NCBI RefSeq assembly: GCF_003351045.1 | Contig: NZ_QQZY01000001.1 | Location: 558,001 to 622,000 of the forward strand | Length of the DNA: 64,000 bases | Direction of reading: 5' to 3' | Source: Gaiella occulta | Lineage (GTDB): Bacteria; Actinomycetota; Thermoleophilia; Gaiellales; Gaiellaceae | Shown: one piece after another, positions 25,374 to 42,837 of the stretch | Position numbering within the stretch: the first letter of the stretch is position 1 | Layout: each line of letters begins with the position of its first letter | Notes under the pieces: generated by a model | The model's database searches: none | Told to the model about the DNA's origin: nothing | Seen by the model: the letters and a program-made list of their open reading frames with translations, nothing else | Position numbers and translations under genes: made by a program

Positions 25374-25407
25374 GTTCAGGCGATCGTCAGGCGCGGCCGC
25401 GCAGGAT
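25374..25407 (+). promoter_or_regulatory. Tandem 11-base box and -10, upstream of the flippase-like gene
   Basis: GTTCAGGCGAT (25374-25384) is followed directly by CGTCAGGCGCG (25385-25395). After 6 bases comes the -10-like CAGGAT (25402-25407). The spacing is the same as at 26442, 40511 and 42804. Confidence 0.65.
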
Positions 25408-25497: not shown

Positions 25498-26430
25498 GTG
25501 CACACACTTCCCGCTCTCGTGTCCGGCGTGGCGCACACGCTCGCCGGCGCGTCGCTCGGCGCCCTCGCCGTCGCGCTCGTGCTCCATCTCGCCAAGATCA
25601 CGGCCGAGGCCCGGTCGTGGCACGCCATCGTCAGCCACGCGTATCCCGATCGCGACGTGCGGTTCCGTACCACGCTCGGCGCGTTCGCGGGCGCCGTCGG
25701 CGCGAACGCGGTGCTGCCGGCGCGCGTGGGTGAAGCCCTGCGTCTCGGCATCGTGCGCAGGCGCGTGCCGGGCTCGAGCGTCGCCACGATCGCGTCGACG
25801 ATCGTGCTCGAGACGGCGATCGAGCTCGTGTTCGGGCTCGCCGTGATCGCCGCCGTGCTCGGCGCGGGCCGCTCGCTCGGCCCGATCGCCGCTCCCACGG
25901 CGCTCGTCGCGGCGCACCCCGCCGTCCTGGCGGTGGCCGGCGCCGTCACCGTCCTGCTCGCCGGCGCCGCGTTCCTGGGGCGGCGCCGCCTCCGTCGCGC
26001 GGCGGCCGGCATGGCGCGCGGGATGTCGATCGTGCGCTCGCCGCGCCGCTTCTTCCGCGGCGTCGTCGTGTGGAAGCTCGTCGCATGGGGGCTGCGGCTC
26101 GCGGCCGTGTACTGGTTCCTGACGGCGTTCCACCTCGGTGCAGGGCTGTGGGCGGTGCTCCTCGTGGTCGCGGCTCAGAACCTCGCGGCGCTGCTGCCGC
26201 TGGCGCCGGGCGGCGCGGGCACGCAGCAGGCCGCACTCGCCTTCGCCCTCGCCGGAACGGCGAGCGTCGCGGCCGCCGTCGGGCTCGGCATCGGCATGCA
26301 GGCGTCGACGGCGCTCGTCGACCTCGCCGTCGGCACCGTCGCCGTCGCGCTCGTGTCGTCGCGGTCCGACGTCCGCGGCGCCCTGCGTCCGGCGGCGCGC
26401 CGCCGGCCGGCGCTCGCGCCCACCCCGTAG
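25498..26430 (+). CDS. LPG-synthase-TM-type (flippase-like) integral membrane protein
   Basis: The 310 residues have about eight hydrophobic helices and match the lysylphosphatidylglycerol synthase transmembrane-region family (UPF0104). Typical stretches are GAFAGAVGANAVLPARVGEALRL, SVATIASTIVLETAIEL and LLPLAPGGAGTQQAALA. In MprF this region flips aminoacylated lipids. Stand-alone members are widespread and mostly uncharacterised, often beside glycosyltransferases. It is preceded by the tandem-repeat box and the mini-ORF, like the MprF-like operon at 36-40 kb. Confidence 0.8.
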   Translation: MHTLPALVSGVAHTLAGASLGALAVALVLHLAKITAEARSWHAIVSHAYPDRDVRFRTTLGAFAGAVGANAVLPARVGEALRLGIVRRRVPGSSVATIASTIVLETAIELVFGLAVIAAVLGAGRSLGPIAAPTALVAAHPAVLAVAGAVTVLLAGAAFLGRRRLRRAAAGMARGMSIVRSPRRFFRGVVVWKLVAWGLRLAAVYWFLTAFHLGAGLWAVLLVVAAQNLAALLPLAPGGAGTQQAALAFALAGTASVAAAVGLGIGMQASTALVDLAVGTVAVALVSSRSDVRGALRPAARRRPALAPTP

Positions 26431-26441: not shown

Positions 26442-26475
26442 GTTCAGGCGCCCGTCAGGCGCGGCGCCCTACGGT
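26442..26475 (+). promoter_or_regulatory. Tandem 11-base box and -10 of the secreted protein/ABC/two-component operon
   Basis: GTTCAGGCGCC (26442-26452) and CGTCAGGCGCG (26453-26463) are followed after 6 bases by TACGGT (26470-26475). The ATG at 26482 follows after another 6 bases, so the gene is leaderless. Confidence 0.7.
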
Positions 26476-28357: not shown

Positions 28358-31024
28358 GTGCTGCCGCTGAGCTGGGTTCGCGGCCTTCTCGCGCGTCGCA
28401 AGGGGCGTCTCGTCGCCACCGCTGCCGGCGTCGCGGTGGCTGTCGCCCTGCTCGCCTCGATCGGGGCGTTCCTGTCGGGCACGAGCGCGGCGATGACCGA
28501 GCGCGCGATCTCCCGCGTCCCGCTCGACTGGCAGGTGGAAGGGCAGACCGGGGCCGACCCCGCGCAGCTCCTGCGCGGGGTGAAGAGCTTCCCGCCGGTG
28601 ACGACGGCGCTGCCCGTCGGCTACGCCGCCGCGGCCGGCTACAGCGCCGTCTCGCACGGTGCCGCGACGAGCGCGGGCCCCGGCTTCGTGCTCGGAATCC
28701 CGAGCGCCTACCGTGCCGTCTACCCGGACGAGATCACGCAGCTGATCGGTGCCGAGCATGGTGTCCTCATCGCGCAGCAGCTTGCCGCGAACCTGGGCGT
28801 CGGGCTCGGAGACGCGGTCACGATCCAGCGGGCCGGGCTGCCGAGCGTGCGCGTGCGCGTCGACGGGGTGATCGACATGCCCGCGGCCGACGCCCTCTTC
28901 CAGACGGTCGGCGCGCCCCCCGGCGCCAGGCAGCCGCCGCCGCCCGACAACGTGCTGTTCCTGCCGCTCGAGCGCTGGCACGCGCTGTTCGACCCGCTCG
29001 CCGCCGTTCGCCCGGATCTCGTCCGCACCCAGATCCACGCGAACATCGACCATGCGGGGCTGCCGCGCGACCCCACGAGCGCGTACGTCCGCGTCGGCGG
29101 GCTCGGACGCAACCTCGAGACGCAGCTCCAGGGCACGGGCCTCGTCGGCAACAACCTCGCGGATGCGCTCTCGAAGGCGCGCTCGGACAGCCTCTACGCG
29201 CGCATCGTGTTCCTCTTCCTCGGCCTGCCGGGCGCGATCCTCGCGGGTCTCGTGACGGCGTCCGTCGCGGGTGCGGGCGCCGATCGCCGCCGCCGCGAGC
29301 AGGCGCTGCTGCGCACCCGGGGGGCAACCGCGCGCGACCTTCTTCGCCTCGCCCTCTCCGAGACCATGCTCGTCGCCCTCGTCGGCGGCGCGCTCGGGCT
29401 CGTCGGCGCCTTCGCGATCGGCAAGCTCGCGTTCGGGTCGAACGGCTTCGGTGCGACCACGCGCGACTCGATCGTGTGGAGCGTGGGAGCGATCCTGGCC
29501 GGGGTGCTCGTCTCGGCGGCGGCGATCGCGCTGCCGGCGTGGCGCGATGCGCGCTCCCTCACGGTCAGCGCCGCGCGCCGCGTCGTCGGCCGCGCCCGGT
29601 CGCCGCTGTGGGCGCGGCTCTGGATCGACGTGCTCGCGCTCGCCGGCTCCGCGTTCGTCTTCTGGCGCACGGGCAGCAACGGCTACAAGCTCGTGCTCGC
29701 GGTCGAGGGCACGCCGCAGGTCTCGGTCGACTACTACTCGTTCCTCGCCCCGATCCTCCTCTGGATCGGCATCGGGCTGCTCAGCTGGCGGCTCGCGGAC
29801 CTGTTCCTGCGGCGGGGCGGCGGCCTGCTGCGGCGGCTCGTGAGCCCGCTGTCCGGGAGCCTCGCCCGTACGGTGGCGGCGACGATGACGCGCCAGCGCA
29901 GGCAACTCGCCGGCGCCCTCACGCTCGTCGCGCTGACGGTGGCGTTCGCCGCCTCGACCGCCGCGTTCAACGCCACCTACAAGCAGCAGGCCGAGGTCGA
30001 CGCGCGGCTCAGCAAGGGCGCCGACGTCGTCGTCACCGAATCGCCGGGCGTCCGCGTCGGCCCTGCGGCGGCGGCGCGGTTCGCAGGCATCCCCGGTGTC
30101 AAGGTCGTCGAGCCGTTGCAACATCGCTTCGCCTACATCGGCGCCGACCTGCAGGATCTCTACGGCGTCAACCCGGCGACGATCGTCGGGAACGGGCGCT
30201 TGCAGGACTCGTTCTTCCGCGGCGGCACGGCGAAGGAGCTGTTCGCGCGGCTCGCCGCGAAGCCCGACGCGATCCTCGTCAGCCAGGAAGCCGCCACCGA
30301 CTACCAGCTCAGGCCCGGCGACCGGGTCAACCTGCGCATCCAGGACGGGCGCACGAAGAAGTCGATCCCGGTGCCGTTCACCTACGCTGGCGTCGCGCTG
30401 GAGTTCCCGTCGGCGCCGAGCGACAGCTTCTTCGTCGCGAACGCGAGCTACGTCGCGAAGGCCACGGGCTCGAACGCCGTCGGAACCTTCCTCATCCAGA
30501 CGGGCGACACGCCGCCCGACCAGGTTGCCAGGCGCGTCGCCGCGCAGGTCGGCACGAGCGCGCTCGTGAGCGACATCACGAGCAAGCGGCGCAAGATCGC
30601 CGGCAGCATCACGTCCGTGGAGCTCGCCGGGCTCACGCGCGTCGAGCTCGGCTTCGCGCTCGTGCTCGCCGCGGCGGCGACCGGGCTCCTGCTCTGGCTC
30701 GGGCTCGCCGAGCGCCGCCGCACGTTCGCGATCGCGCAGGCGCTCGGCGCGAGCCAGCGCCAGCTCGGCAGCTTCATCTGGAGCGAGACCGCCTACGTCA
30801 CCCTCGGCGGGCTCATCCTCGGCGCGGCGGGTGCCGCCGCGCTCGCGGTCATGCTCGTGAAGGTGCTCACCGGCGTCTTCGACCCTCCGCCGACCGGCCT
30901 CGCCGTCCCGTGGGGCTACCTGATCGGCGTCGCCGCGGTCGCGCTCGCCGCCGTGGCGGCGGCCGGAGCGGCGGCGATCCGCTCCGTCCGCAGGCCCGCC
31001 GTCTCCGTCCTGCGCGACCTGTGA
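28358..31024 (+). CDS. FtsX/MacB-type ABC transporter permease
   Basis: The 888 residues have an N-terminal membrane helix (VATAAGVAVAVALLASIGAFLSG), a large periplasmic-type domain, and a first FtsX module around residues 285-400 (IVFLFLGLPGAILAGLVTASVAG, LSETMLVALVGGALGLVGAFAIG). A second module follows near the C-terminus (LVLAAAATGLLLWLGLAERRRTFAIAQALGAS). This duplicated layout is that of permeases that act on extracytoplasmic proteins, peptides or lipids. The operon continues into a two-component system, a pairing common for envelope-stress or antimicrobial-response exporters. Confidence 0.88.
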   Translation: MLPLSWVRGLLARRKGRLVATAAGVAVAVALLASIGAFLSGTSAAMTERAISRVPLDWQVEGQTGADPAQLLRGVKSFPPVTTALPVGYAAAAGYSAVSHGAATSAGPGFVLGIPSAYRAVYPDEITQLIGAEHGVLIAQQLAANLGVGLGDAVTIQRAGLPSVRVRVDGVIDMPAADALFQTVGAPPGARQPPPPDNVLFLPLERWHALFDPLAAVRPDLVRTQIHANIDHAGLPRDPTSAYVRVGGLGRNLETQLQGTGLVGNNLADALSKARSDSLYARIVFLFLGLPGAILAGLVTASVAGAGADRRRREQALLRTRGATARDLLRLALSETMLVALVGGALGLVGAFAIGKLAFGSNGFGATTRDSIVWSVGAILAGVLVSAAAIALPAWRDARSLTVSAARRVVGRARSPLWARLWIDVLALAGSAFVFWRTGSNGYKLVLAVEGTPQVSVDYYSFLAPILLWIGIGLLSWRLADLFLRRGGGLLRRLVSPLSGSLARTVAATMTRQRRQLAGALTLVALTVAFAASTAAFNATYKQQAEVDARLSKGADVVVTESPGVRVGPAAAARFAGIPGVKVVEPLQHRFAYIGADLQDLYGVNPATIVGNGRLQDSFFRGGTAKELFARLAAKPDAILVSQEAATDYQLRPGDRVNLRIQDGRTKKSIPVPFTYAGVALEFPSAPSDSFFVANASYVAKATGSNAVGTFLIQTGDTPPDQVARRVAAQVGTSALVSDITSKRRKIAGSITSVELAGLTRVELGFALVLAAAATGLLLWLGLAERRRTFAIAQALGASQRQLGSFIWSETAYVTLGGLILGAAGAAALAVMLVKVLTGVFDPPPTGLAVPWGYLIGVAAVALAAVAAAGAAAIRSVRRPAVSVLRDL

Positions 31025-31098
31025 CGGGAGGGCAGGCGCCGGCGATGCACCCGCTGGCGGCACCCGAGGCGTCGTCGCAGCGCGATACTGCCCGGGAC

Positions 31099-31767
31099 GT
31101 GATCGACCCTCACGTGATCGTGCTCGAGGACGACGCCGAGCTCCGCGTGCTGTTGACGCGGGGCCTGCGCGAGGAAGGCTTCACCGTCACGGCCGTGGGA
31201 AGCGCCGCCGAGCTGCTCGCACGGCTCCCTCCCGAAGGGCTCTCCGCGCTGGTCGTCGACATCGGGCTCCCCGACGCGGACGGCCGGGATGTGGTGCAGG
31301 CGCTGCGCGCGCAGGGATCCGCGGCGCCGGTCATCTTCCTCACGGCCCGCGACGCGCTGCCCGACCGGCTCTCCGGATTCGCCGCCGGCGGCGACGACTA
31401 CCTGACGAAGCCGTTCGCATTCGCGGAGCTCGTCGCACGGCTGCGCGCGCTGATGAGGAGAGGCGGCGCCGACCTCTCGCTCGAGGTCGGCGGGCTGCGG
31501 CTCGACCCCGGCACCCACGCGGTTTCCTGTGGCGGCGGGACGGCCGAGCTGACGCCGACGGAGTTCCGCATCCTCGCCCGCCTGGCCTCCACGCCGGGAG
31601 ACGCGGTGCGACGCCGGCAGCTCGTCGAGGCTGCCTGGCCGCACGGGGCGATCGTCCACGACAACACCCTCGACGTGTACATCGCACGTCTGCGGCGCAA
31701 GCTGGCGGCGCTTCCCGCTGCGCCCGAGATCGCGACGGTGCACGGAGTCGGCTACTCGTTGCGATGA
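31099..31767 (+). CDS. OmpR-family response regulator 1
   Basis: The 222 residues comprise a receiver domain (VIVLEDDAELR, phosphoacceptor in VVDIGLPDADG, conserved lysine in YLTKPFAF) and a winged-helix DNA-binding domain (LTPTEFRILARLASTPGDAV, TLDVYIARLRRKL, VHGVGYSLR). I chose GTG 31099, which gives the usual distance to the first acidic pair and lies 9 bases after a GATACT -10-like sequence. A GTG at 31021 overlapping the permease stop would add 26 residues. It is co-transcribed with its kinase and probably regulates the transporter operon. Confidence 0.88.
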   Translation: MIDPHVIVLEDDAELRVLLTRGLREEGFTVTAVGSAAELLARLPPEGLSALVVDIGLPDADGRDVVQALRAQGSAAPVIFLTARDALPDRLSGFAAGGDDYLTKPFAFAELVARLRALMRRGGADLSLEVGGLRLDPGTHAVSCGGGTAELTPTEFRILARLASTPGDAVRRRQLVEAAWPHGAIVHDNTLDVYIARLRRKLAALPAAPEIATVHGVGYSLR

Positions 31768-33110
31768 GGCCGCGGCTCCGCCTCGGTGTCCGAACGCGCC
31801 TGCTCCTCGCCGTGGTCGGCGCCGTCGCGCTCGCTCTCGCGATCGGCGTGGCGGCGTTCAACCTGCTGCTCGGCCAGCGCCTCTCGGACAGCGCGATCGC
31901 GCTCGCGAAGGCGCAGGCCGTGGCGGAGATCTCCTCGCTCAAGGTGGTCGACGGCAAGCTCGTCGTGCCCGAGGGGCCGGACGAAGGAGCGGCGCTCGGG
32001 AGCCCCGTGTGGGTGTTCGCCGGCACGACGGCGATCGAGACGCCGCGCATCGCCCACTCGATCACGGCCGCCGCTGCCTCGCTCGCCGGGGGGCCGGAGC
32101 GGGCGCTGCGCGTGAACGAGACGATGCGGCTGTACGCGCTTCCCGTCCTCCAGCAGGGAAAGCGGGTCGGCACGGTCGTCGCCGGCGTCCCGCTCCATCC
32201 CTACGACGAGACGGAGACGATCGCGCTCGTCGGCTCGGTGGCCCTGGCGGTCGCGCTGCTCGCCGCCGTGACCGTGCTGACGCGCTGGATCCTCGGCAGG
32301 GCGCTGCTCCCCGTCTCCCTGATGACGAAGGACGCGGCGGCATGGAGCGACCACGATCTCGACCGGCGCTTCGGCCTCGGTGAGCCGTACGACGAGCTCA
32401 CGCGGCTCGCCTGCACGCTCGACGCGCTGCTCGAGCGTCTCGCGGCGAGCCTCCGGCACGAGCAGCGCTTCACGGCGGAGCTCTCCCACGAGCTGCGGAC
32501 GCCGCTCGCGAAGATCGCCGCCGAGACGGAGCTGGCCCTGCGCCGGGAGCGCAGCGGCGACGACTACCGCGCCAGCCTCGAGGCGGTGCGCCGCAGCGCC
32601 GAGCAGATGACACGCACGGTCGAGGCGCTCGTGTCCGCAGCCCGGCAGGATGCCGGCCTGACGCGGACGACGAGCGATGCCCGCGACGGCGTCCGTGCCG
32701 CGGTCGCCTCCGTGCAGGACGGCGCCGACGCCGGCGGTGTCCGCATCACGCTCGCGCTCCCGGACGCTCCCGTCCGCGTCGCGATCGAGGACGGGTTGGT
32801 CGAGCGCATCATCCAGCCCCTGCTCGACAACGCCGTCCGCTACGGCCGCAGCTCCGTCTCGGTCGAGGTGCTGCGCAACGGCGCCACCGTGCTGGTCAGC
32901 GTCGTCGACGACGGGGACGGCGTCGGCGCGGACGAGCGCGAGCGCATCTTCGAGCCGGGCGTGCGCGGATCGGCGGCCGCAGCCGAGCCGGGCGGGGCCG
33001 GGCTCGGCCTGGCTCTCGCGCAGCGTCTCGCGCGCAGTGCCGGGGGCGAGATCAGCGCCGAGCACGACGGCGCCGGAGGCCGCTTCGTCGTGCGGCTGCC
33101 GGTCGCCTGA
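31764..33110 (+). CDS. Sensor histidine kinase 1
   Basis: The 448 residues have two membrane helices (LLLAVVGAVALALAIGVAAFNLLLG and LVGSVALAVALLAAVTVLT) that bound a small external sensor domain of ~140 residues. A HAMP-like linker, the HisKA box ELSHELRTPLAKI and an ATPase domain with LLDNAVRYG, DDGDGVGADERERIFEPG and GGAGLGLALAQRLA follow. It is a complete kinase for the adjacent regulator, joined by an ATGA overlap. The stimulus is probably an envelope condition, since the operon encodes an FtsX-type exporter. Confidence 0.9.
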   Translation: MRPRLRLGVRTRLLLAVVGAVALALAIGVAAFNLLLGQRLSDSAIALAKAQAVAEISSLKVVDGKLVVPEGPDEGAALGSPVWVFAGTTAIETPRIAHSITAAAASLAGGPERALRVNETMRLYALPVLQQGKRVGTVVAGVPLHPYDETETIALVGSVALAVALLAAVTVLTRWILGRALLPVSLMTKDAAAWSDHDLDRRFGLGEPYDELTRLACTLDALLERLAASLRHEQRFTAELSHELRTPLAKIAAETELALRRERSGDDYRASLEAVRRSAEQMTRTVEALVSAARQDAGLTRTTSDARDGVRAAVASVQDGADAGGVRITLALPDAPVRVAIEDGLVERIIQPLLDNAVRYGRSSVSVEVLRNGATVLVSVVDDGDGVGADERERIFEPGVRGSAAAAEPGGAGLGLALAQRLARSAGGEISAEHDGAGGRFVVRLPVA

Positions 33111-33131
33111 CCTCTCCCCGGCGACAGCTCG

Positions 33132-34090: not shown

Positions 34091-34113
34091 GTCTGGACAC
34101 GACCGCCGGGCAC
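34087..34113 (-). CDS. Leaderless mini-ORF (8 codons) ahead of the ExxE membrane protein gene
   Basis: A GTG 6 bases after the -10 TACGCT opens MPGGRVQT, and its TGA stop overlaps the ATG at 34090 (ATGA). There is no ribosome site for the main gene, so ribosomes loading on the leaderless GTG could re-initiate at the overlap. Confidence 0.4.
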   Translation of the reverse strand: MPGGRVQT

Positions 34114-34119
34114 CCGCCG

Positions 34120-34154
34120 AGCGTACCCGTCGGCGACCTGAACGGAACCTGAAC
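34120..34154 (-). promoter_or_regulatory. Tandem 11-base box and -10 of the ExxE membrane protein operon
   Basis: On the minus strand GTTCAGGTTCC (34154-34144) and GTTCAGGTCGC (34143-34133) form the cleanest repeat pair in the window. After 7 bases comes TACGCT (34125-34120). Confidence 0.7.
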
Positions 34155-34267
34155 ACGTGTGCCGAGGGCGATACCTCCCGGTCGCACGGCGGCTACGGTG
34201 GAGGCGCAGGCCTGATGTCCCGCGTACCCGCGGCGAACGAGCCTCGAGACGACCGGGAGATCTCCGC

Positions 34268-34879
34268 ATGGACTACCGCCTCTATCACGCCGTCAACGAG
34301 TTCGTCGCCGCGCACTCCTGGATCGGGCGCGTTGCCGCAAGCGTCGAGTCGTGGGCGATTCCGCTGTTTGCGATCGCGACGCTCGCCCTCTGGCTCGGCT
34401 CGCGGCCGGGCACCGCGCGGAAGTGGAAGCTGGCGTGCACCTCGGCCCTCGCCTCCGCAGGGCTTGCGCTCCTTTTCAACCAGCTCGTCGCGCAGGTCTG
34501 GTTCCGGGATCGACCGTTCGCCTCCCACCCCGACGCGGCCGTGTGGGGGAGCCGCTCGGGCGACCCCTCGTTCCCGAGCGACCATGCGAGCGCCGCGTTC
34601 GCGATCGCCGTCGCGGTGCTGCTGTTCGACCGCGCCGTCGGCTCGCTCTTCCTCGCGGCCGCGGTGGCCGTCTCGGTGGGGCGAGTCCTCACGGGCGTGC
34701 ACTACCCGGCCGACGTGGTCGCGGCCGCGCTCGTCGGGACCGCATGCGCGGCCGTCGTCGTGCGCGCCGGGCGTCCTCTCGCGGTGCGGATCGTGAGCGT
34801 CGTCGAGCGCGTGACCGACCCGATCGTGCAGCCGCTATGGCTCGCTCTCGGCCGGGACGGCCGCGGAGACCGCGGCTAG
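34268..34879 (+). CDS. PAP2-superfamily phosphatase (undecaprenyl-diphosphatase-like)
   Basis: The 203 residues have five or six membrane helices and the three PAP2 motifs: RDRP in VWFRDRPFAS, PSDHAS in FPSDHASAAF, and GRVLTGVHYPADV. These form the catalytic site of lipid phosphatases such as BcrC, which recycle undecaprenyl pyrophosphate for wall synthesis. The ATG at 34268 has a GGGAGA site 8 bases upstream. It ends exactly one base before the convergent esterase gene. Confidence 0.9.
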   Translation: MDYRLYHAVNEFVAAHSWIGRVAASVESWAIPLFAIATLALWLGSRPGTARKWKLACTSALASAGLALLFNQLVAQVWFRDRPFASHPDAAVWGSRSGDPSFPSDHASAAFAIAVAVLLFDRAVGSLFLAAAVAVSVGRVLTGVHYPADVVAAALVGTACAAVVVRAGRPLAVRIVSVVERVTDPIVQPLWLALGRDGRGDRG

Positions 34880-35881
34880 TCACGGTCGCCCGGGCAGGAG
34901 AGCCGGCCGCGAGAGATCGGGAGGAGTCGACGCCGGGGTCGTAGCGGCGGCGCCGTCGACGGCGGGTGCCAGCGCCGCAAGCGCGCGCCCCAGCCATTCG
35001 CCCGCGCGGGCAGACCACAGGGCCTGGTCGTGCCCGCCGCCGTAGAGCCGGAACATGTGCGGCACGCGGGCGGCGCGCAACTCCGCGTCGAGGAGGACGT
35101 TGTCACGCCGGAAGCGCGAGTCCCGCCTCCCGACGTAGAAGCCGAGGAGCAGCGGTCGGCGAGCGGCGGAGCGGCGGAGCGTTCCGACGAGCGCGTGGGC
35201 GCTCGCGCGGGCGTTCGCGGCCGGCGATCCGAGGTCGAGGACGCTGGTGCCGTCCGGGTCGGTGGGTCGGTGGTAGCCGCTCCACGACTCGATCACCGAG
35301 AAGGTGTCCAGATGGTGGAGTCCGATCAGCATGGCGCCGTAGCCGCCGGCGGAGATGCCGACGAGCGCGCGTCCGCGCCGATTCGGGATCGTCCTGAAGT
35401 GGCGGTCGACGTAGGCGGGGATTTCGCGTGCGATCGCCGTCTCCCAGTTGCGTCCCTCGCCCCAGTCGATGTACTCGGGATCGGAGTCGCCGTCGCGGGC
35501 GGCCTGCGGGGCGACGACGATGGCACGCCCCCCGACCTGCTCCAGCGCCCTGCGGACGAACCCGATGTCGCGGAAGGCGGATGCGGAAGCGGGGAGCCCG
35601 TGCAGGAAGTAGATGACCGGATAGCGCCCGCCGCCGTCGTAGCCGGGAGGGAGGGAGACGGCGAACCGGAGCGTCATCCCGAGCGCATGCGAGCGAAGCG
35701 TCCGTTCCCTGATCGCCAGGTCGGCTTCGCGGCCGCGCGCGTCGCGCACCAGTGTCGCCGCGGCCGCGAGAGCCGCGGCGACCACGATGGCTGCGAGCAC
35801 GGCGGCGCGGCCGGCGCGCCCCCGTGAGATCGCTTCGCGATCGCGGGCGAGGGCGCCTGGTCGACGCGGAGTGCGGGTCAC
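34880..35881 (-). CDS. Alpha/beta-hydrolase esterase of the antigen-85/esterase D type (second of the MprF operon)
   Basis: The 333 residues start with a membrane anchor or signal (AAVLAAIVVAAALAAAATLV). The esterase fold follows: VSLPPGYDGGGRYPVIYFLHG, the nucleophile elbow GISAGGYGAM, an aspartate region and the catalytic histidine in GGGHDQALW. The active site faces outside the membrane. It is the last gene of an operon with an MprF-like enzyme and resembles the esterase that opens that operon. Hydrolysis of aminoacylated lipids is an attractive but unproven role. Confidence 0.82.
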   Translation of the reverse strand: MTRTPRRPGALARDREAISRGRAGRAAVLAAIVVAAALAAAATLVRDARGREADLAIRERTLRSHALGMTLRFAVSLPPGYDGGGRYPVIYFLHGLPASASAFRDIGFVRRALEQVGGRAIVVAPQAARDGDSDPEYIDWGEGRNWETAIAREIPAYVDRHFRTIPNRRGRALVGISAGGYGAMLIGLHHLDTFSVIESWSGYHRPTDPDGTSVLDLGSPAANARASAHALVGTLRRSAARRPLLLGFYVGRRDSRFRRDNVLLDAELRAARVPHMFRLYGGGHDQALWSARAGEWLGRALAALAPAVDGAAATTPASTPPDLSRPALLPGRP

Positions 35882-36789
35882 GCCGGCGGTGACCCGAGCT
35901 CGCCCCGCAGCACCCCGAGCATGCTCTGCTGCGCTGCGCGGATCCCCGGGGCCGTCTCCCCGGGTGTCGAGCCGCCGCGCGCGAGCACGGCCGCGCCCGC
36001 GATCACCGCGGCGAAGGAGAGCAGACGGAGCGCACCGAGCAGTCCGGCGGGCAGCGGCTCGTGGTAGACGATCAGCCCGGCGAGGATGGGCAGCGCGTTC
36101 GTGAACAGCGTCGCCACGCCGGCCGTCGCGAGTGCCCCGCCGCGCTGGAAGCCGAGCTGGAGCGCGACGAAGGCGAGCCCGTGGCAGGCGAGCAGCGCCG
36201 GGACGAAGAGGAGCCACGGGCCTCCCGCGACGGCCGCCTTGGTGCCGACGTCGCCTGCCGCGTAGAGAACGCCGGCCGCGATGCCGAGGCCGGCGCCTGC
36301 GGCGAGCCGGCGGGTCGCCGGGCTCGCGGCGAGCGCCGCGGCGGCGAGCGAGAGCGCCATCCAGGCGGCGACGACGAGCCAGGAGCCGTGGCCGCCGCTC
36401 TTGCGCTCGCCCGCGAGCGAGACCCCGAGCAGCGCCAGCCCCGCCGTGGCGACGCCGACGCCGGCCCATTCACGGCGCGCGAGAGGCGTTGCGGTCGTCT
36501 TCCACACGAGCAGCGCGAGCAGGCCGATGCCGCCCGCCGACGCCGCCTGGACGAGCGAGAGCGGCGCCAGCGCGAGCGCGGCGACGTACAGCACCCAGCC
36601 GCCGATACCGGCGAGGAAGCCGGCCAGCCAGCGCAGGCTCGTGAAGAGCGAGCGCAGCGAGAGCAGCGGGCGGCGAAGCGAGAGCGGCGGCAGCCGCGCC
36701 GTCTCACCGTGCTGGGCGAGGTAGCCCCAGTTGAGCGCCGCGGCCGAGGCGAACGCGAGCACGAGCCCGGCGGCGAGCGTCGCCGTCAT
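35878..36789 (-). CDS. DMT/EamA-like membrane transporter
   Basis: The 303 residues have about nine or ten hydrophobic helices arranged as two halves, as in the drug/metabolite transporter superfamily (first helix LAAGLVLAFASAAALNWGYLAQHG; second half with AAGVLYAAGDVGTKAAVAGG and LFTNALPILAGLIVYHEPLP, whose YHEPLP end is typical). The substrate is unknown. Both ends overlap neighbours by 4 bases, so it is part of the MprF-like operon and may move lipid or amino-acid precursors. Confidence 0.78.
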   Translation of the reverse strand: MTATLAAGLVLAFASAAALNWGYLAQHGETARLPPLSLRRPLLSLRSLFTSLRWLAGFLAGIGGWVLYVAALALAPLSLVQAASAGGIGLLALLVWKTTATPLARREWAGVGVATAGLALLGVSLAGERKSGGHGSWLVVAAWMALSLAAAALAASPATRRLAAGAGLGIAAGVLYAAGDVGTKAAVAGGPWLLFVPALLACHGLAFVALQLGFQRGGALATAGVATLFTNALPILAGLIVYHEPLPAGLLGALRLLSFAAVIAGAAVLARGGSTPGETAPGIRAAQQSMLGVLRGELGSPPA

Positions 36790-38888
36790 CTCCGCTGCCG
36801 TCCGCTGAGCGGCAGGTACGCCTCCGCCGCGAGCGCGGCGAGTCCGACGCGTGGCAGGTCGCGACGGTGCTCGTAGACGACGAAGCGCCGCTCCCAGCCC
36901 GGAAGGAACTTGCGGTTGAAGAGGAGCAGGTTGTCGAGCTGGAAGTGGCCCTTGAGCGCGAGCAGGGCGCGGCGCTGCACCTGCTGCACGCGCGACAGCT
37001 CGGCTTCGGGCGCGAGCAGCGCCGCAAACGGGGCGAAGTTGAGCGACACGCGCTCGAAGCCGTGCTCCCGCGCCCAGGCGATCGCCTCGCAGACGAGCCA
37101 CTCGTTGAACCCGTTCGGCGTCGTCCGCAGCCGCGGCATCGACGAGAGCGACAGCGCGGAGCCCGCCCGCGACACCGCGAAGTGGAGGAAGCCCGCGGGC
37201 GTGCCGTCGGCGGCGCGCCCGATCACGAACACCGCCTCCTCGTCCTCGAGCCGGAAGAGCGCGTCGATCGCCATCACGAAGCCCTTCTCGGGCTGGTCGC
37301 CGCGCCAGGCGCGGGCGATCGCCTCCAGCTCGGCTCGCAGCGCGTCCCCGATCGCGCGCGGGCGCAAAACGTCGACCCGGTAGCCGGCCGCCTTCAGCCG
37401 GGTGACCGACTGGCGCACCTTCCGGATCTGCCGGCCCTCGAGCGAGAACGAGGCCGTGTCGACGACGGCCTCGTCCCCGTGGTAGAGGGACTGGAGGCCG
37501 TGGGCGCGGTAGAGATCGAGCCAGGTCTCGGAGGCGCCGAGTATGGCGATGCGCCAGTCGCGCGCGTGGGCGAAGGCGATGAAGCGGCTGACGAGACCGT
37601 CGAGCGCCGCCGCCGCGCCCACGGGGTCGCCCGCGACGATGGCGACGCCGCCAACGACCGTGTAGGCCAGGAACGCGCGCTCCTCGTCGTCGAAGAAGTA
37701 CGACTTGTCGGCGCGCAGCGCGAACGGCGCGAGCGTGTCCGCCCCCCATTCGGCGACGAGGCGGCGGGCCAGCTCGCGCTCCCGCGCATCCTGGCGCAGG
37801 CGATAGCGCCACGGCGCAAGCCAGCCGAGCAGGACGATCGCCGCCGCCGTCAAGCCGAGGCCGAGGATGGAGAGCGGGAACCACTGGCCGAAGGTGCCGG
37901 ACAGGTGCGCGGAGCCGCGCAGCCTGAGGCCGAGCAGCGCCGCGGTCGTCTCGCGCAGGGCAAAGCCGGCGGAGAACGGCTGGTCGGCGGTGAGCCGGTT
38001 CACCCACAGTGCCGCGGCGCCGTATCCGTAGATCAGGGCCGCGAACAGGAGTGTGCGGGCCACGATGCGGGTGTCCGCGCCGGGATCCCCGCGCACGTGG
38101 AAGTCCTGCCGGCGTGCGACGAGCGCGAGCGCGACGAGGGCGCTCGCCGCCGCGCCGTAGTGGGCGCCGTGCACGAGGTGCAGGATCGCCGAGCCGCCGA
38201 GGAGGAGCACTGCGAGCTGCCAGGCGCGGCGCTTGCGCCGCGCCAGCCCGCGCGCGATCACCAGCAGCCCGAGCCCGACCGGCGCCACGAGCAGGGCGCC
38301 GACCCCCGGCACGGGGAGGGGCGCCAGCTGCTCGACCAGCGACGACTCGTACTCCGGGAAGATCGCGACGAACATGTCGAACGCACCCGCGAGCGCGACG
38401 AGCGCAGCCAGCGTGAACGGCGCCAGCTCCCCCTCCCCGTCGCGCCCACCCCGGCGCCCGAGCAGCGCGCCGCCGAGACCCGCCAGGCCCGCCGGCAGGT
38501 AGACGGCCGGCAGGCGCGCCGCGGCGTGGAACGCGTCGAGCGCCGGCACCTGGCGGACGACGAGCAGCGACACGCCCGTCGTCAGGTACGCGAACGATCC
38601 GGCGCCGAGCGCGAGCAGGAGCGCCGCCGTCAGGCGCCTGGCGCGCACGAGCCGTGCGAGCAGCCCGAGCAGCAGCGCGGCCGCCGACCAGACCGCGACG
38701 AAGACGAGCAGCGGTACGGCCGAGCGCCGCGACAGCTCGTCGAGCGGGAGAGCGTCCGGCAGCGGCGGCCCCGGCACCGGTCCGCTCGGCTGGACCAGGT
38801 ACAGCCAGCCCGAGGCGGCGGCGGCGACGACGAGCCCGGTGAGAACCGCGCCTGCGAGAGCCGCTCCGCGCGCGGCGCGCCTAGCCAC
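36786..38888 (-). CDS. MprF-like phosphatidylglycerol aminoacyltransferase
   Basis: The 700 residues have an N-terminal half with about ten membrane helices and a cytosolic C-terminal half of the DUF2156/LPG-synthase type (FALRADKSYFFDDEERAFLAY, GDPVGAAAALDGLV, GDEAVVDTASFSLEGRQIRKVRQS, LKGHFQLDNLLLFNRKFLPGWERRF, quoted in part). Such enzymes move lysine or alanine from tRNA to phosphatidylglycerol, lowering negative charge and raising resistance to cationic peptides. The GTG at 38888 has GAGGAGG 7 bases upstream and overlaps the stop of the upstream esterase by 8 bases. The amino acid used is unknown. Confidence 0.88.
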   Translation of the reverse strand: MARRAARGAALAGAVLTGLVVAAAASGWLYLVQPSGPVPGPPLPDALPLDELSRRSAVPLLVFVAVWSAAALLLGLLARLVRARRLTAALLLALGAGSFAYLTTGVSLLVVRQVPALDAFHAAARLPAVYLPAGLAGLGGALLGRRGGRDGEGELAPFTLAALVALAGAFDMFVAIFPEYESSLVEQLAPLPVPGVGALLVAPVGLGLLVIARGLARRKRRAWQLAVLLLGGSAILHLVHGAHYGAAASALVALALVARRQDFHVRGDPGADTRIVARTLLFAALIYGYGAAALWVNRLTADQPFSAGFALRETTAALLGLRLRGSAHLSGTFGQWFPLSILGLGLTAAAIVLLGWLAPWRYRLRQDARERELARRLVAEWGADTLAPFALRADKSYFFDDEERAFLAYTVVGGVAIVAGDPVGAAAALDGLVSRFIAFAHARDWRIAILGASETWLDLYRAHGLQSLYHGDEAVVDTASFSLEGRQIRKVRQSVTRLKAAGYRVDVLRPRAIGDALRAELEAIARAWRGDQPEKGFVMAIDALFRLEDEEAVFVIGRAADGTPAGFLHFAVSRAGSALSLSSMPRLRTTPNGFNEWLVCEAIAWAREHGFERVSLNFAPFAALLAPEAELSRVQQVQRRALLALKGHFQLDNLLLFNRKFLPGWERRFVVYEHRRDLPRVGLAALAAEAYLPLSGRQRR

Positions 38889-39849
38889 GGGCAAGCCTCC
38901 TCGATGCTGCCAGGAAGGCGAGCGATGCGTTGCCGCGCCACAGCGACCAGTTGTGCCCGCCGGAGACGAGGAAGAAGCGGTGGGGGATGCGGGCGCGGGC
39001 GAGCGCGGAGGCGAACGCGGCGTTCTGCACGCGCAGCTTGTCGCGGCGACCCGAGTAGAACCACACGAAGGTGTGCGCGCGGCGCAGCGCGGCGGCGCGT
39101 CCCGGGAGCTCGAGCAGCGGGCTGTTGTGGGCGAGCCGCCGCGGGTCGGTGCCGAAGATCGAACGCGCCCTGTCGGCGAGCATGTAGCCGGACCAGCTCT
39201 CGAGCACGCGGAAGCGGCCGGGGTGGTGGAGGCCGATGTTGACGGCTCCGTAGCCTCCCTCGGAGAGACCGCCGAGCGCGCGTCCGCCGCCGCTTCGCAC
39301 CGTCCGGTAGCGGGCGTCGATCGCGCGCACGAGGTCGCGGGCGACGAACGTCTCCCAGCCCTCGCCGGCTCTCACGCCGTTTGCCCATTCCTTGTCGGTG
39401 AACGTGCCGGTCGAGCCGAACGGCATCACGAGGATGAGCGGCCGGGCCTTCCTCTTCGCGAGCAGGATGTCCTCGACGACGCCGAGGCGCACGGTCTGCA
39501 GGAACGCGGCCGGGCGTCCGGGAAAGCCGTGCAGGAGGTAGAAGACCGGGTAGCGCGTGGCCGCATGCCGCGCGTAGCCCGGCGGCAGGTAGACGATCAC
39601 CGTCTGCCGTCTGCCTCCGAGCGCGGGGCTCGCGACCGCGATCGTCTGCGTCGTTCCGGCCCGGTCGACGAAGGCGGGGTCCTTCGGCGGCGGATAGCCC
39701 CGGTACAGCCAGTAGTTGTCGAGGTAGCGCACGAGGCCGAGCAGCCCCGGTGCGACGAATGCGGCGGCGGCGACCGCGAGCAGCGCCGCGCGCAGAGCCC
39801 GCGGGCGCCGCTTCCGGGAGGGCGTGCGGTCGACCGCCTGCCCGCTCAC
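38881..39849 (-). CDS. Alpha/beta-hydrolase esterase of the antigen-85/esterase D type (first of the MprF operon)
   Basis: The 322 residues have a basic N-terminus and a membrane anchor (ALRAALLAVAAAAFVAPGLLGLV). The hydrolase domain follows: VIVYLPPGYARHAATRYPVFYLLHG (start and end of the first strand region), nucleophile GGLSEGGYGAV and catalytic histidine in SGGHNWSLWRG. It resembles the esterase at 34880. The GTG at 39849 overlaps the stop of a 22-codon leaderless mini-ORF. An outward-facing lipid or sugar-ester hydrolase is likely. Confidence 0.82.
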   Translation of the reverse strand: MSGQAVDRTPSRKRRPRALRAALLAVAAAAFVAPGLLGLVRYLDNYWLYRGYPPPKDPAFVDRAGTTQTIAVASPALGGRRQTVIVYLPPGYARHAATRYPVFYLLHGFPGRPAAFLQTVRLGVVEDILLAKRKARPLILVMPFGSTGTFTDKEWANGVRAGEGWETFVARDLVRAIDARYRTVRSGGGRALGGLSEGGYGAVNIGLHHPGRFRVLESWSGYMLADRARSIFGTDPRRLAHNSPLLELPGRAAALRRAHTFVWFYSGRRDKLRVQNAAFASALARARIPHRFFLVSGGHNWSLWRGNASLAFLAASRRLARG

Positions 39850-39914
39850 CCGGCGGTCGCGGGACGGCGGCCGGGCGCGCGGACGGGCCGCGAGTGGACA
39901 GTTTCGCTTCTCAC
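39846..39914 (-). CDS. Leaderless mini-ORF (22 codons) ahead of the esterase/MprF operon
   Basis: A GTG 9 bases after the -10 CACGCT opens a 22-codon frame (MRSETVHSRPVRAPGRR then PATAG). Its TGA overlaps the GTG of the esterase at 39849 (GTGA). No ribosome site precedes the esterase start, so coupling from the mini-ORF would explain its translation. Confidence 0.4.
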   Translation of the reverse strand: MRSETVHSRPVRAPGRRPATAG

Positions 39915-39923
39915 CGTCGTCGC

Positions 39924-39957
39924 AGCGTGACGTGGTCTGCCTGAATCGCTCCTGAAC
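39924..39957 (-). promoter_or_regulatory. Tandem 11-base box and -10 of the esterase/MprF operon
   Basis: On the minus strand GTTCAGGAGCG (39957-39947) and ATTCAGGCAGA (39946-39936) are followed after 6 bases by CACGCT (39929-39924). Confidence 0.65.
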
Positions 39958-39990
39958 GGCCGCTGCCGTCTCCCGGCAGACGGTCGCGAA

Positions 39991-40029
39991 ACGGCGTGCG
40001 GCCCCGGAACCGCCGGGGCCGCACGCCGT
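39991..40029 (-). terminator. Strong hairpin terminator after the acidic secreted protein gene
   Basis: A perfect 17-base stem (ACGGCGTGCGGCCCCGG at 39991-40007 and its complement at 40013-40029) with a 5-base loop lies 21 bases past the stop of the minus-strand gene at 40051. A short TTT follows on that strand. It also isolates the esterase operon promoter. Confidence 0.85.
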
Positions 40030-40050
40030 TGCTCGCGCTGTCCGGGCCCG

Positions 40051-40413
40051 CTACTCCTGCCCCTCGAACTGGTGGTCGGCGTTCGGGTTGCCGGGCTCGT
40101 CGGCGTGGCCGCCGGGACCGTCGTTGCCCGCGACCTCGCTGCCGGACTCGGCCTGCTCCGAGCCCGAGCTCTGCTCGCTGCCGGCCTGCTCGCTGCCGGC
40201 CTGCTCGGTCGCGTCGTCCTTGCCGCTCTGGTCCTGGATCGAGTCGGTGTCGGCGGCGCTCGCGCCGCCGTTCGACTCGGCGCTCGCCTGCGTCGTCGCC
40301 GGCGTGACCGGGTTCGGCGTTCCCTGGCCGGCGGATGCCAGCGCTGCTCCGCCGAGCGCGAGTGCGGCGAGCGCCGCGAATCCCGCGATGATCTTGGTGA
40401 GCTTGTTGCGCAT
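40051..40413 (-). CDS. Small acidic secreted protein
   Basis: The 120 residues start with a signal peptide (NKLTKIIAGFAALAALALGGAALASAG). The mature part is highly acidic low complexity with EQAGS-type repeats (two 15-base DNA units at 40171-40200) and no cysteine. I chose ATG 40413 because GAAGGAG lies 6 bases upstream; the ATG at 40419 directly abuts that site. Family and function are unknown. A TCTCAT-class tandem box and a -10 (TACGTT) lie upstream, and a strong terminator follows. Confidence 0.75.
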   Translation of the reverse strand: MRNKLTKIIAGFAALAALALGGAALASAGQGTPNPVTPATTQASAESNGGASAADTDSIQDQSGKDDATEQAGSEQAGSEQSSGSEQAESGSEVAGNDGPGGHADEPGNPNADHQFEGQE

Positions 40414-40456
40414 CGTCATCTCCTTCGTGTCGGGGTCTGATCTGCGATGCGCCCTG

Positions 40457-40489
40457 AACGTAGAAGACGGTCGTGAGACGGAGATGAAA
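40457..40489 (-). promoter_or_regulatory. TCTCAT-class tandem box and -10 of the acidic secreted protein gene
   Basis: On the minus strand TTTCATCTCCG (40489-40479) and TCTCACGACCG (40478-40468) are followed after 5 bases by TACGTT (40462-40457). The leader of about 35 bases ends in the GAAGGAG ribosome site. Confidence 0.55.
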
Positions 40490-40510
40490 CGCGTCCCCGC
40501 CGTCCGCGGC

Positions 40511-40544
40511 GTTCAGGTGCTTGTCAGATGCGCCCGAGTAGCGT
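40511..40544 (+). promoter_or_regulatory. Tandem 11-base box and -10 upstream of the Kelch/YVTN gene
   Basis: GTTCAGGTGCT (40511-40521) and TGTCAGATGCG (40522-40532) are followed after 6 bases by TAGCGT (40539-40544). It is divergent from the box at 40468-40489, with only 21 bases between the two boxes. Confidence 0.65.
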
Positions 40545-40552
40545 CGTGTGCG

Positions 40553-40627
40553 ATGCGGGATCGAACCTCGACCGAGCGAGCGGATGCGGCGGCCTGTGCA
40601 GGCGGGGCGCCGGCGGCCGTGCGGTGA
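40553..40627 (+). CDS. Leaderless mini-ORF (24 codons) ahead of the Kelch/YVTN gene
   Basis: An ATG 8 bases after the -10 TAGCGT opens a 24-codon frame (MRDRTSTERADAAACAGG then APAAVR) whose TGA overlaps the GTG at 40624 (GTGA). The main gene lacks a ribosome site of its own. Confidence 0.4.
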   Translation: MRDRTSTERADAAACAGGAPAAVR

Positions 40628-42753
40628 CCTCGCATCCCGTTGCCCGCCGGGCCGCGTCGCGGCGGCGCCGTTCCCTGCGCCGGCTCGCGCTGGCCGCAGC
40701 CCTCGGCGTCGTGTCCCTTCTCGTCGTGGGCCTCGCGATCGAAGGCCGATCTCGCACGCCGCGAGCTCCGTCTGCGGCCGGTTTCCCGCGTCGACCGGCT
40801 CCCGCGAGCGGCGCCGGTGCCGCGGTCGGCGCCTTGCGGGCGAGCGGCGGCGCCCTGGTCCTGCGGAGCGAGCCGCTCGCTGTCCTGGGCAGCCCTCTCC
40901 AGGATGCTGCCGGAGCGGCCGCGGGCGCCGTCCCGGTCGTCGCCGGCGGGCTCACCGCCGCGGACGCCTCGACCGACGCGGTGATCGCGATCGCCCGCTC
41001 CGGACCGCGCGTCGTGGGCCGGCTGCCCGGAGCCCGCCACGATGCGGCCGCCGTCGCGCTCGGCGGCCGCGTGTATCTCTTCGGCGGCGGCAACGGCGTC
41101 GCCCAGATCGACGAGATCGTCCGCGTCGCTCCCGGGCACCCGTCGTCGACGACCGTCGTGGGACGGCTTCCGGCCCCGAGCTCGGACAGCGCGGCGGCGG
41201 CGCTGGCGGGAACGGCATACGTCGTGGGCGGGTACACCGGGCGAGCGTGGCTGGACACGATCGTCGCCTGGCGACCGGGGCGCCCTGCGCGCGTCGTCGC
41301 GCACCTCCCGACCGCGCTGCGCTACGCGGCGGTGTCGGCCGCCGGCGGCCGGGTCGTCATCGCGGGCGGCTCCGTGCCCACGGGCGCCGCCAGCCGTGCC
41401 GTCTACACGTTCGATCCCGCGACCGGCAGGATCGCGAAGGCGGAGGCGCTCCCGGCCGCCACCACGCACGCGGCCGCTGCCTCGCTCGCAGGGCTCGCCT
41501 TCGTCATCGGAGGGCGGGGCAGCAGCGCCGGTACTGCCAGCGACCGCATCGTCTCCGTCGACGCCGTGAGCGGCAGGGTGCGCGGCGCAGGCCGCCTCCC
41601 GCGCGCGCTCTCCGACCTCACCGCCGTCTCCTTGCCCGGCCGCATCGTCGTCGCCGGGGGCAGGAGCGGCACAGGCGCCGTGACCGACGTGCTCGCGCTG
41701 TCGGTCGCCGCAGGCTCGCGGCCGGCCGGCGCGGCGGCGGGCCGCGCGGAGGGGGCCGCGGCCGGCGTCTACGCACACACGGGCCGATCGATGTTGAGTG
41801 CCGTGACGCGCCGGATGCCTGCCCGCATCTACGTCCCGAACAGCCTCGCCAACACGGTCGACGTGATCGACCCGCAGACGTTCCGCATCGTGCGCCATTT
41901 CGCGGTCGGCGCGCTACCGCAACACGTCACGCCCGCATGGGACATGAAGACGCTGTACGTCCTCGACGACGCCGGCAACAGCCTGACGCCGATCGACCCC
42001 CGCACCTCCCGTCCCGGCAAGCCCATCCCCGTCACCGATCCGTACAACATGTACTTCACGCCCGACGGGAGGTACGCGATCGTCGTCGCCGAGCGGAACG
42101 CGCGCCTCGACTTCCGCGACCCGCACACCTTCCGGCTTCGCCACTCCCTCGCCGTGCCGTGCAGGGGGGTCGACCACATGGACTTCTCGGCCGACGGCCG
42201 CTACCTGCTCGCGAGCTGCGAGTTCTCCGGCGAGATGGTCGAGGTCGACGTGCGGCGGCAGCGCGTCGTCGGCACGCTCGCGCTCGGCGACGGCAGCGGC
42301 AAGCCCCAGGACGTGAAGCTGTCGCCCGACGGCACGATCTTCTACGTCGCCGACGCGCGCGCCGGCGGCGTGTGGGAGGTGTCGGGCGCGCCGCTGCGGA
42401 CGCTCGGATTCCTGCCGACCGGCCGGGGTGCCCACGGCCTCTACCCGAGCCGGGACGCGCGCTTCCTCTATGTCTCCAACCGGGACGCGGGCAGCGTCTC
42501 CGTCGTCGACTTCGCCTCGCGCAGGGTCGTCGCGACCTGGCGCATCAGCGGCGGCAGCCCGGACATGGGCGGCGTGTCCGCCGACGGGAGCGTCTTGTGG
42601 CTCTCGGGGCGCTACGACGGCGAGATCTACGCGATCGCCACCCGTACCGGTCGGCTGCTCCGGCGCATCAGGGTCGGAGCCGGGCCGCACGGCGTCTCCG
42701 TATGGCCCCAGCCCGGCCGCTTCTCGCTCGGGCACACCGGGATCACGCGATGA
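40624..42753 (+). CDS. Membrane-anchored double beta-propeller protein (Kelch plus YVTN repeats)
   Basis: The 709 residues have a basic N-terminus and one membrane helix (RLALAAALGVVSLLVVGLAI) as anchor. Residues ~85-390 are Kelch-type blades (GGRVYLFGGGNGVAQIDEI, GTAYVVGGYTGRAWLDTI, GRVVIAGGSVPTGAASR, GRIVVAGGRSGTGAVTDV). Residues ~415-700 are YVTN/cytochrome-cd1-like blades (IYVPNSLANTVDVIDPQTF, FLYVSNRDAGSVSVVDFASR). Both would lie outside the membrane. The fusion suggests a binding or scaffold role. No enzyme residues are evident. The GTG start is coupled to the mini-ORF. Confidence 0.82.
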   Translation: MTSHPVARRAASRRRRSLRRLALAAALGVVSLLVVGLAIEGRSRTPRAPSAAGFPRRPAPASGAGAAVGALRASGGALVLRSEPLAVLGSPLQDAAGAAAGAVPVVAGGLTAADASTDAVIAIARSGPRVVGRLPGARHDAAAVALGGRVYLFGGGNGVAQIDEIVRVAPGHPSSTTVVGRLPAPSSDSAAAALAGTAYVVGGYTGRAWLDTIVAWRPGRPARVVAHLPTALRYAAVSAAGGRVVIAGGSVPTGAASRAVYTFDPATGRIAKAEALPAATTHAAAASLAGLAFVIGGRGSSAGTASDRIVSVDAVSGRVRGAGRLPRALSDLTAVSLPGRIVVAGGRSGTGAVTDVLALSVAAGSRPAGAAAGRAEGAAAGVYAHTGRSMLSAVTRRMPARIYVPNSLANTVDVIDPQTFRIVRHFAVGALPQHVTPAWDMKTLYVLDDAGNSLTPIDPRTSRPGKPIPVTDPYNMYFTPDGRYAIVVAERNARLDFRDPHTFRLRHSLAVPCRGVDHMDFSADGRYLLASCEFSGEMVEVDVRRQRVVGTLALGDGSGKPQDVKLSPDGTIFYVADARAGGVWEVSGAPLRTLGFLPTGRGAHGLYPSRDARFLYVSNRDAGSVSVVDFASRRVVATWRISGGSPDMGGVSADGSVLWLSGRYDGEIYAIATRTGRLLRRIRVGAGPHGVSVWPQPGRFSLGHTGITR

Positions 42754-42803
42754 CGCGTCCGCGCGCGTGGCGCCGGCGGCTGTCCGGGCCGGCCCTGACC
42801 CGC

Positions 42804-42837
42804 GTTCAGGCGACGGTCAGATCGGCGCACCTACGGT
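42804..42837 (+). promoter_or_regulatory. Tandem 11-base box and -10 of the glycosyltransferase/deacetylase operon
   Basis: GTTCAGGCGAC (42804-42814) and GGTCAGATCGG (42815-42825) are followed after 6 bases by TACGGT (42832-42837). The ATG at 42845 follows 7 bases later, leaderless. Confidence 0.7.

Follow-up and report, generated by a model that had tools for sequence, protein, structure and literature searches.

A conserved cassette of an MprF-like synthase, exported esterases and a DMT-like membrane protein in Gaiella occulta and its relatives

An operon that joins an MprF-like aminoacyltransferase to two exported esterases and a transporter-like membrane protein raises the question of what happens to an aminoacylated lipid after it has been made. 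Such an operon lies at positions 34880-39849 of the stretch of Gaiella occulta DNA analyzed here (64,000 nucleotides of contig NZ_QQZY01000001.1, positions 558,001 to 622,000; hereafter the window). A preliminary description of the locus proposed a charge and discharge cycle for membrane lipids, under the control of a tandem sequence box. Here we describe a set of genes, conserved as a unit, whose products probably load membrane lipids with amino acids, bring them to the outer face by a separate transporter, and there re-route or remove them through exported esterases. In its specific form, we consider it about an even call that this is a lipid-aminoacylation cassette of the PesT/AlaDAGS kind, with flipping by a protein resembling drug/metabolite transporters (DMT) or by one of family PF03706, transfer by the esterase EstA, and removal or a second transfer by the esterase EstB. 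This reading is built on gene order, conservation, co-occurrence, domain content, intact catalytic triads and export anchors.

A conserved four-gene cassette

Four genes on the same (minus) strand fill the locus, in the order EstA, synthase, DMT-like protein, EstB:

38881..39849, minus strand: EstA, an exported, membrane-anchored PF00756 serine esterase/acyltransferase (triad S196, D270, H299; elbow GLSEGG) with a fold like that of carbohydrate esterase family 1 (CE1)
36786..38888, minus strand: MprF-like aminoacyl-lipid synthase, with about ten transmembrane segments plus PF09924, the latter domain predicted to be cytosolic; without PF03706 and without a lysyl-tRNA synthetase (LysRS) domain
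35878..36789, minus strand: membrane protein resembling DMT and small multidrug resistance (SMR) proteins, a proposed aminoacyl-lipid flippase on account of its fold and of its slot, which is held by PF03706 in f21 genomes
34880..35881, minus strand: EstB, an exported PF00756 esterase and EstA paralogue (elbow GISAGG; intact triad)

EstA (322 amino acids) starts at GTG 39849, the synthase (702 amino acids) at GTG 38888 or alternatively TTG 38894, the DMT-like protein (a single chain of 303 amino acids) at ATG 36789, and EstB at GTG 35881. By codon check, the estA and synthase genes overlap by 8 bp with the GTG start (14 bp if TTG 38894 is used), and both the synthase/DMT and the DMT/estB overlaps are 4 bp, in agreement with the 4-8 base overlaps on which the preliminary description had based an operon.

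The same long synthase (61-74% identity) is present in eight of 81 related genomes, its own included. EstA is found at E <= 1e-160 in exactly these eight and in none of the other 73, and the DMT-like protein occurs in the same eight (split over two frames in G035), with weaker or unlinked matches elsewhere. A scan of named genomes gave 31 loci, which overlap the set of relatives (L154, L155, L160 and L172 lie on the same contigs as L036, L037, L039 and L041, among others) and come mostly from metagenome-assembled Thermoleophilia or unplaced Actinobacteria, with one titled Acidimicrobiaceae and one Acidobacteriota. EstA lies directly upstream of the synthase at all 25 assessable named loci (L161, L165, L175, L176, L181 and L184 left out), the DMT gene lies directly downstream at 28 of 29 (L178 and L182 left out), and the 4-bp overlap between synthase and DMT genes is kept in 27 of 28. 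At L167 the DMT position is taken by a gene for a third esterase paralogue, Est3, and at L159/L040 the DMT gene is split over two frames. EstB is encoded within the fetched stretch at 18 of the 31 loci, often on the opposite strand and upstream of EstA; at L168 and L170 it directly follows the DMT gene, as in the window. On a 60-row synthase tree, the clade of the window's cassette is fully supported. Because order and overlaps recur in many genomes, the grouping is more than chance, and mere adjacency of the four genes is ruled out; the earlier suggestion that they work together stands in the sense of one conserved unit. A limited, title-level literature search (DMT or EamA with MprF; MprF in Gaiellales or Thermoleophilia) showed nothing on an EstA-MprF-DMT cassette among the titles listed.

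Beyond this clade, the pairing of synthase and esterase is old or recurrent across Actinomycetota. When an EstA profile was searched against 296 genomes of the phylum and MprF neighbors were sought within 1.5 kb, the nine best matches outside the source genome (E <= 2.3e-37) all fell in an MprF locus, as did two (L065, L074) of the 11 weaker matches listed down to 1e-20. A PF09924 survey of 149 genomes found 30 above the cut-off (gene G140 was left out, and match G151 fell below the cut-off). A PF00756 gene is the immediate neighbor, in several orientations, of 14 of the 38 PF09924 genes examined (14 of the 30 genomes), and the fetched stretches around the other 24 contain no PF00756 gene.

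Synthase, esterases and candidate flippase

We infer the substrates, the flipping, the choice between transfer and hydrolysis, and the two-component control as follows. The catalytic domain of the synthase, in the cytosol, would use aminoacyl-tRNA as donor and load its aminoacyl group onto a membrane lipid (diacylglycerol [DAG], phosphatidylglycerol [PG] or a glycolipid). The aminoacyl-lipid would then be carried to the outer leaflet by the DMT-like protein, or by a stand-alone PF03706 protein that shares a type of upstream box with the operon; a separate flippase of either type is invoked because the product must reach the outer leaflet and the synthase is without the MprF flippase subdomain. 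EstA, anchored outside, would take over the aminoacyl group on its serine, from which either another acceptor such as PG (transesterification) or water would receive it. EstB, whose fold family and triad are those of EstA, would act on the same lipid pool with another specificity, most simply as a hydrolytic off-switch, a possible role for this enzyme.

The synthase matches PF09924 over the full profile (1-298 of 298; E 7.3e-65, 219.4 bits against a cut-off of 27.5) and was aligned to the solved lysyl-PG synthase 4v36, which confirms the earlier MprF-like label and places the protein among aminoacyltransferases of the aminoacyl-lipid kind. Of its approximately ten transmembrane segments, the four N-terminal ones are particular to the clade, and the next six correspond to those that precede the synthase domain in canonical MprF. 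The distribution of basic residues favors a topology with both termini, and hence the catalytic domain, predicted to lie inside. Extracytoplasmic exceptions exist among such synthases, as in LysX2 (PMC8974105), and an arrangement of that type is disfavored here by the charge distribution. A Pfam search of the protein gave no match to the PF03706 flippase subdomain, so that a canonical bifunctional MprF is rejected; LysX is likewise rejected, since the 702 residues include no lysyl-tRNA synthetase domain and the LysX model scores 262 bits against a cut-off of 742. Residues 1-145 (window 38888-38450) form the conserved four-segment N-terminal region, with LPLDE and RQ motifs throughout the clade, and no Pfam family matched this region. 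The genome also encodes a second MprF homolog (G000:C1:376034-377689), about 40% identical, with no esterase neighbor in the 14 kb examined.

Both esterases belong to PF00756 (EstA, E 1.8e-23; EstB, E 1.1e-24) and are each other's closest relatives in the genome, a search with EstA returning just these two places at E <= 1e-5. Each has a single N-terminal hydrophobic segment preceded by a basic stretch, a predicted anchor that would place the enzyme outside the cytoplasm, and each has a complete Ser/Asp/His triad with a nucleophile elbow, GLSEGG in EstA and GISAGG in EstB. The paralogous, anchored esterases with GxSxGG elbows of the preliminary description are thus borne out, their location by prediction. 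The triad is kept in all 33 complete EstA rows and all 25 EstB rows; in Est3, which brings the number of esterases per cassette from two to three in several relatives, all 13 rows keep the Ser, have His in place of Asp, and have no catalytic His (for some rows of these three counts the same contig or genome enters twice). Est3 forms the C-terminal part of an in-frame fusion with the DMT-like protein at L155 (10076-11806), L157 (10019-11770) and L181 (864-2585), with PF00756 confirmed by Pfam in the fusion of L037, on the same contig as L155; at L168 (10960-12633) and L170 (8559-10229), EstB and Est3 form a single polypeptide of about 557 amino acids directly after the DMT gene. These fusions physically tie the DMT-like protein to the esterases. 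Residue 197 of EstA (window 39261-39259 region), right after the catalytic Ser, is Glu in nearly all EstA proteins and Ala in EstB, and one might speculate from this pattern that Glu197 lies near the amino group of the substrate. PF06057, which we take to be the family of VirJ/AcvB/PA0919-type aminoacyl-PG hydrolases, is absent from the Pfam matches of EstA and EstB at E <= 0.1, which consist only of PF00756 plus a sub-threshold Chlorophyllase match in EstB.

Whether the esterases transfer or discharge is the point on which the earlier cycle turns. In that explanation lipids are charged by the synthase and discharged by both exported esterases, which as hydrolases take the amino acid off again, like AhyD or PA0919; it is one of two live options, and we think it unlikely. 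Exported serine hydrolases with intact triads are indeed genetically tied to the synthase here. However, simple hydrolases would hardly be needed in two or three paralogous copies per cassette, and the nearest precedent in gene order points elsewhere: Smith and colleagues reportedly found in 2015 that formation of alanyl-PG (Ala-PG) in Corynebacterium glutamicum needs a putative esterase encoded upstream of the synthase. PMC10580965, which describes the C. glutamicum synthase AlaDAGS, restates the idea that the paired esterase is a transferase, while titles cited there also report dedicated aminoacyl-PG hydrolases in other bacteria. In Mycobacterium marinum, lysyl-DAG was unchanged after disruption of the esterase-domain gene downstream of lysX (PMC12637418). 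With these two precedents, the charge-discharge cycle is at best unproven, and by analogy with the corynebacterial pair the upstream esterase would rather be a transferase that forms Ala-PG than a hydrolase that discharges it.

The preliminary description gave the DMT gene no role, and the position of the gene suggests a flippase. Its label as a DMT transporter is weakly supported by sequence, where the protein stays below cut-off (NCBIfam DMT_1, 20.8 bits against 50; TMEM234, 15.1 against 30.1) and where, among 26 members of the DMT-like family, sub-threshold Pfam matches to TMEM234 (13 of 26), NIPA (12 of 26) and EamA (1 of 26) include none that reaches the curated cut-off. It finds its support in the predicted fold. 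The model (mean predicted local distance difference test [pLDDT] score 90.6) gave SMR and DMT-fold transporters as top rows in VIA-align, namely Gdx-Clo (Z 10.8 over 103 residues), LicB (Z 10.6 over 159) and entry 5i20, presumably YddG (Z 8.2 over 174), all below the Z of about 13 under which matches can be generic for helical bundles. Foldseek with the same model found no significant match, and the DMT alignment, run as a profile against solved structures, returned only NIPA2 (E 0.66) and an unrelated chain. Given the low Z scores and the Foldseek result, the DMT-fold assignment is likely but not secure.

The main argument for the DMT-like protein as a flippase is that it alternates in third position with PF03706: in four genomes of another family, f21 (L077-L080, two of them analyzed with Pfam), the slot after EstA and the synthase holds a PF03706 protein and not a DMT-like one. 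We know of no DMT-family flippase for aminoacyl-lipids. The flippase Subdomain 1 of Rhizobium tropici MprF spans residues 24-325, according to PMC8131360, and we read the PF03706 region as this subdomain. From its place in the cassette, the DMT-like protein may be a replacement flippase for the aminoacyl-lipid. A further PF03706 gene lies in the window itself:

25498..26430, plus strand: stand-alone protein of family PF03706 (LPG_synthase_TM), of which the genome has five; it shares a box group with estA and is a possible alternative flippase

A more elaborate version, which we also hold to be possible but doubtful, is an outer-leaflet relay that would run from a flippase-less MprF through a DMT flippase, which would present the lipid directly to the anchored esterases: EstA as transesterase, EstB as hydrolase and, in relatives, the triad-degenerate Est3 (fused to flippase or EstB). 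A single product of the inner leaflet would in this way be spread over several acceptors in the outer one.

Several observations weigh against the cassette reading. The esterase-adjacent label needs six changes on the 60-row synthase tree, at least five of them forced, and the pairing has therefore been gained or lost several times. Flipping could also be the work of the five PF03706 proteins that the genome encodes, including the one in the estA box group, and DMT homologs also stand alone in genomes without EstA. Finally, among solved structures EstA comes closest, in sequence and in fold, to feruloyl and other CE1 esterases rather than to acyltransferases, so that a carbohydrate-ester substrate is conceivable for EstA. 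The top feruloyl esterases reach template-modeling scores of 0.60-0.67 against the EstA model and Ag85 structures 0.55-0.57 (query-normalized), with a mean pLDDT of only 69.9 for that model; a mycolyltransferase (Ag85) identity is not favored.

Two of these observations lead to rival explanations. If the stand-alone DMT homologs, away from lipid genes, are the guide, the DMT-like protein could be an amino-acid or metabolite transporter, for instance for re-uptake of the amino acid released by the esterases, and not a lipid flippase; the fold includes, by cited titles, the amino-acid exporter YddG and the choline importer LicB, the latter the second row above. We regard this as possible but doubtful, in view of the slot shared with the MprF flippase family, the fusion to an exported esterase-like domain at three loci, and the SMR relatives ArnE/ArnF, which are related in fold to DMT and reported as glycolipid flippases in PMC9574504. 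The stand-alone homologs (L204-L211) offered no informative gene context except at L209 (3678-7814), where a second DMT-family gene overlaps a DedA-like gene, named by eye, by 4 bp, at a distance of about 0.7 kb from an MprF homolog outside any cassette. The CE1 relatives, among them acetyl-xylan as well as feruloyl esterases, in turn suggest that the esterases act on other envelope esters (carbohydrate, glycolipid or acyl-lipid) and that the operon is a set of envelope-remodeling genes under one stress regulator, an idea that fits a box group which also takes in a GT4 glycosyltransferase, a PAP2 phosphatase and an ABC transporter. It does not fit the recurrence of the EstA subfamily together with the synthase, variously oriented, in different classes of Actinomycetota, nor the absence of full-strength EstA from the 73 relatives that have no such synthase, and we consider it improbable.

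Tandem boxes and a two-component system

The cassette reading also includes control of the operon. The tandem box of the preliminary description is presumably TTCAGG-N5-TTCAGG at 39940-39956, and related boxes occur around a two-component system in the window:

39940..39956, minus strand: tandem box TTCAGGAGCGATTCAGG; estA starts about 90 bp farther downstream
34137..34153, minus strand: second exact tandem box TTCAGGTTCCGTTCAGG, between and upstream of both an OFeT_1-like permease gene and the PAP2 gene (other strand)
34157..34879, plus strand: PAP2-family phosphatase gene, convergent with estB
25375..25391, plus strand: variant box TTCAGGCGATCGTCAGG, upstream of the PF03706 gene
26443..26459, plus strand: variant box TTCAGGCGCCCGTCAGG, upstream of a run of exported-protein, ABC and two-component genes
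40512..40528, plus strand: variant box TTCAGGTGCTTGTCAGA, upstream of a beta-propeller gene
42805..42821, plus strand: variant box TTCAGGCGACGGTCAGA; the ATG (42845) of a GT4 glycosyltransferase follows after 23 bp
31024..31767, plus strand: OmpR-type response regulator, its true start slightly downstream of 31024
31764..33110, plus strand: histidine kinase, candidate partner of the response regulator

The exact pattern occurs at two sites in the 3.03-Mb genome, 39940 and 34137, and the pattern derived from 39940 has five matches in the window at up to one mismatch, against 0.06 expected; these two results are less circular than the clustering described next. The relaxed pattern TTCAGGN5KTCAGR has seven exact matches in the genome, six of them within 17.4 kb (window 25375-42821) around the two-component system at 31024-33110, a clustering that is partly circular because the pattern was drawn from sites in the window. 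Behind both the 26443 and the 42805 box stands CTACGGTCG, with an ATG a few bases farther on, a spacing that suggests activator boxes near the -35 position of leaderless or short-leader promoters. From these arrangements, the OmpR-type response regulator may bind the box, and the two-component system may control the operon.

In the relatives L036-L042 and L047, no match to TTCAGGN5TTCAGG with up to two mismatches was found upstream of estA; L040 has a two-mismatch site at 8308, next to estB and to the start of estA. The idea that the box is a conserved regulatory element is accordingly set aside, and box control is lineage-specific at most. The earlier proposal of control by the tandem box thus stands for the presence of a box upstream of estA and its recurrence near the two-component system, and does not extend to the relatives.

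Comparison with known systems

If the cassette works as we propose, it would represent a third route for moving aminoacylated lipids outward, besides the MprF flippase domain and the detached PF03706 protein. Synthesis, flipping and post-flip chemistry would be separate single genes, so that each step could be separated, providing a genetic handle on the role of the esterases that accompany actinobacterial MprF and LysX proteins. The repeated pairing across the phylum also suggests the mycobacterial LysX-associated esterase as a candidate aminoacyl transferase, and not as a lysyl-DAG hydrolase only.

The coupling of an aminoacyl-lipid synthase to an esterase is already known in Actinobacteria, from pesT/alaDAGS, lysX/Rv1639c and sco3397/sco3396. 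What appears new here, within the limited literature search, is a synthase without PF03706, a DMT-like third gene, and second or third esterase paralogs, some of them fused. The closest layout is that of C. glutamicum pesT-alaDAGS, which like the window has an MprF homolog with a putative esterase gene upstream in an actinobacterium; in the window the esterase gene lies directly upstream of the synthase with the 8-bp overlap. Unlike that pair, the window's synthase has four extra N-terminal transmembrane segments, and the locus includes a DMT-like third gene and a second esterase (in relatives sometimes a third).

In mycobacteria, the gene that directly follows lysX is Rv1639c, which has a putative esterase domain (PMC9504009). 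There, too, an aminoacyl-DAG synthase is followed by a membrane protein with a PF00756 domain; however, LysX is fused to LysRS, and its esterase is downstream, larger, and distant from EstA. The same arrangement is seen at the f33 loci L118, L119 and L120, presumably mycobacterial, where synthases of LysX size (about 1100-1170 amino acids) are followed at once by a large PF00756 membrane protein. In Streptomyces coelicolor, the class I targets of sigma-E include both sco3397 (mprF) and sco3396 (Pfam Esterase), according to PMC6767563. As in the window, a PF00756 esterase is numbered next to mprF, and one envelope-stress regulator serves both; in contrast to the window, the promoters are separate, control is by sigma-E, and no DMT gene is described there.

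More distant comparisons bear on single steps. Canonical MprF, as in R. tropici and Staphylococcus aureus, likewise has a PF09924 domain preceded by a transmembrane region, whereas its PF03706 flippase Subdomain 1 is missing from the window's synthase. AhyD of Enterococcus and PA0919 of Pseudomonas also couple a hydrolase to an aminoacyl-PG synthase, a likeness of role. ArnE/ArnF, the reported flippase of undecaprenyl-phosphate-aminoarabinose, would share with the DMT-like protein an SMR/DMT-type fold, likely in the latter from its model, and, if our reading is right, the outward movement of an amine-bearing lipid in a charge-modifying pathway; the window's protein is a single chain.

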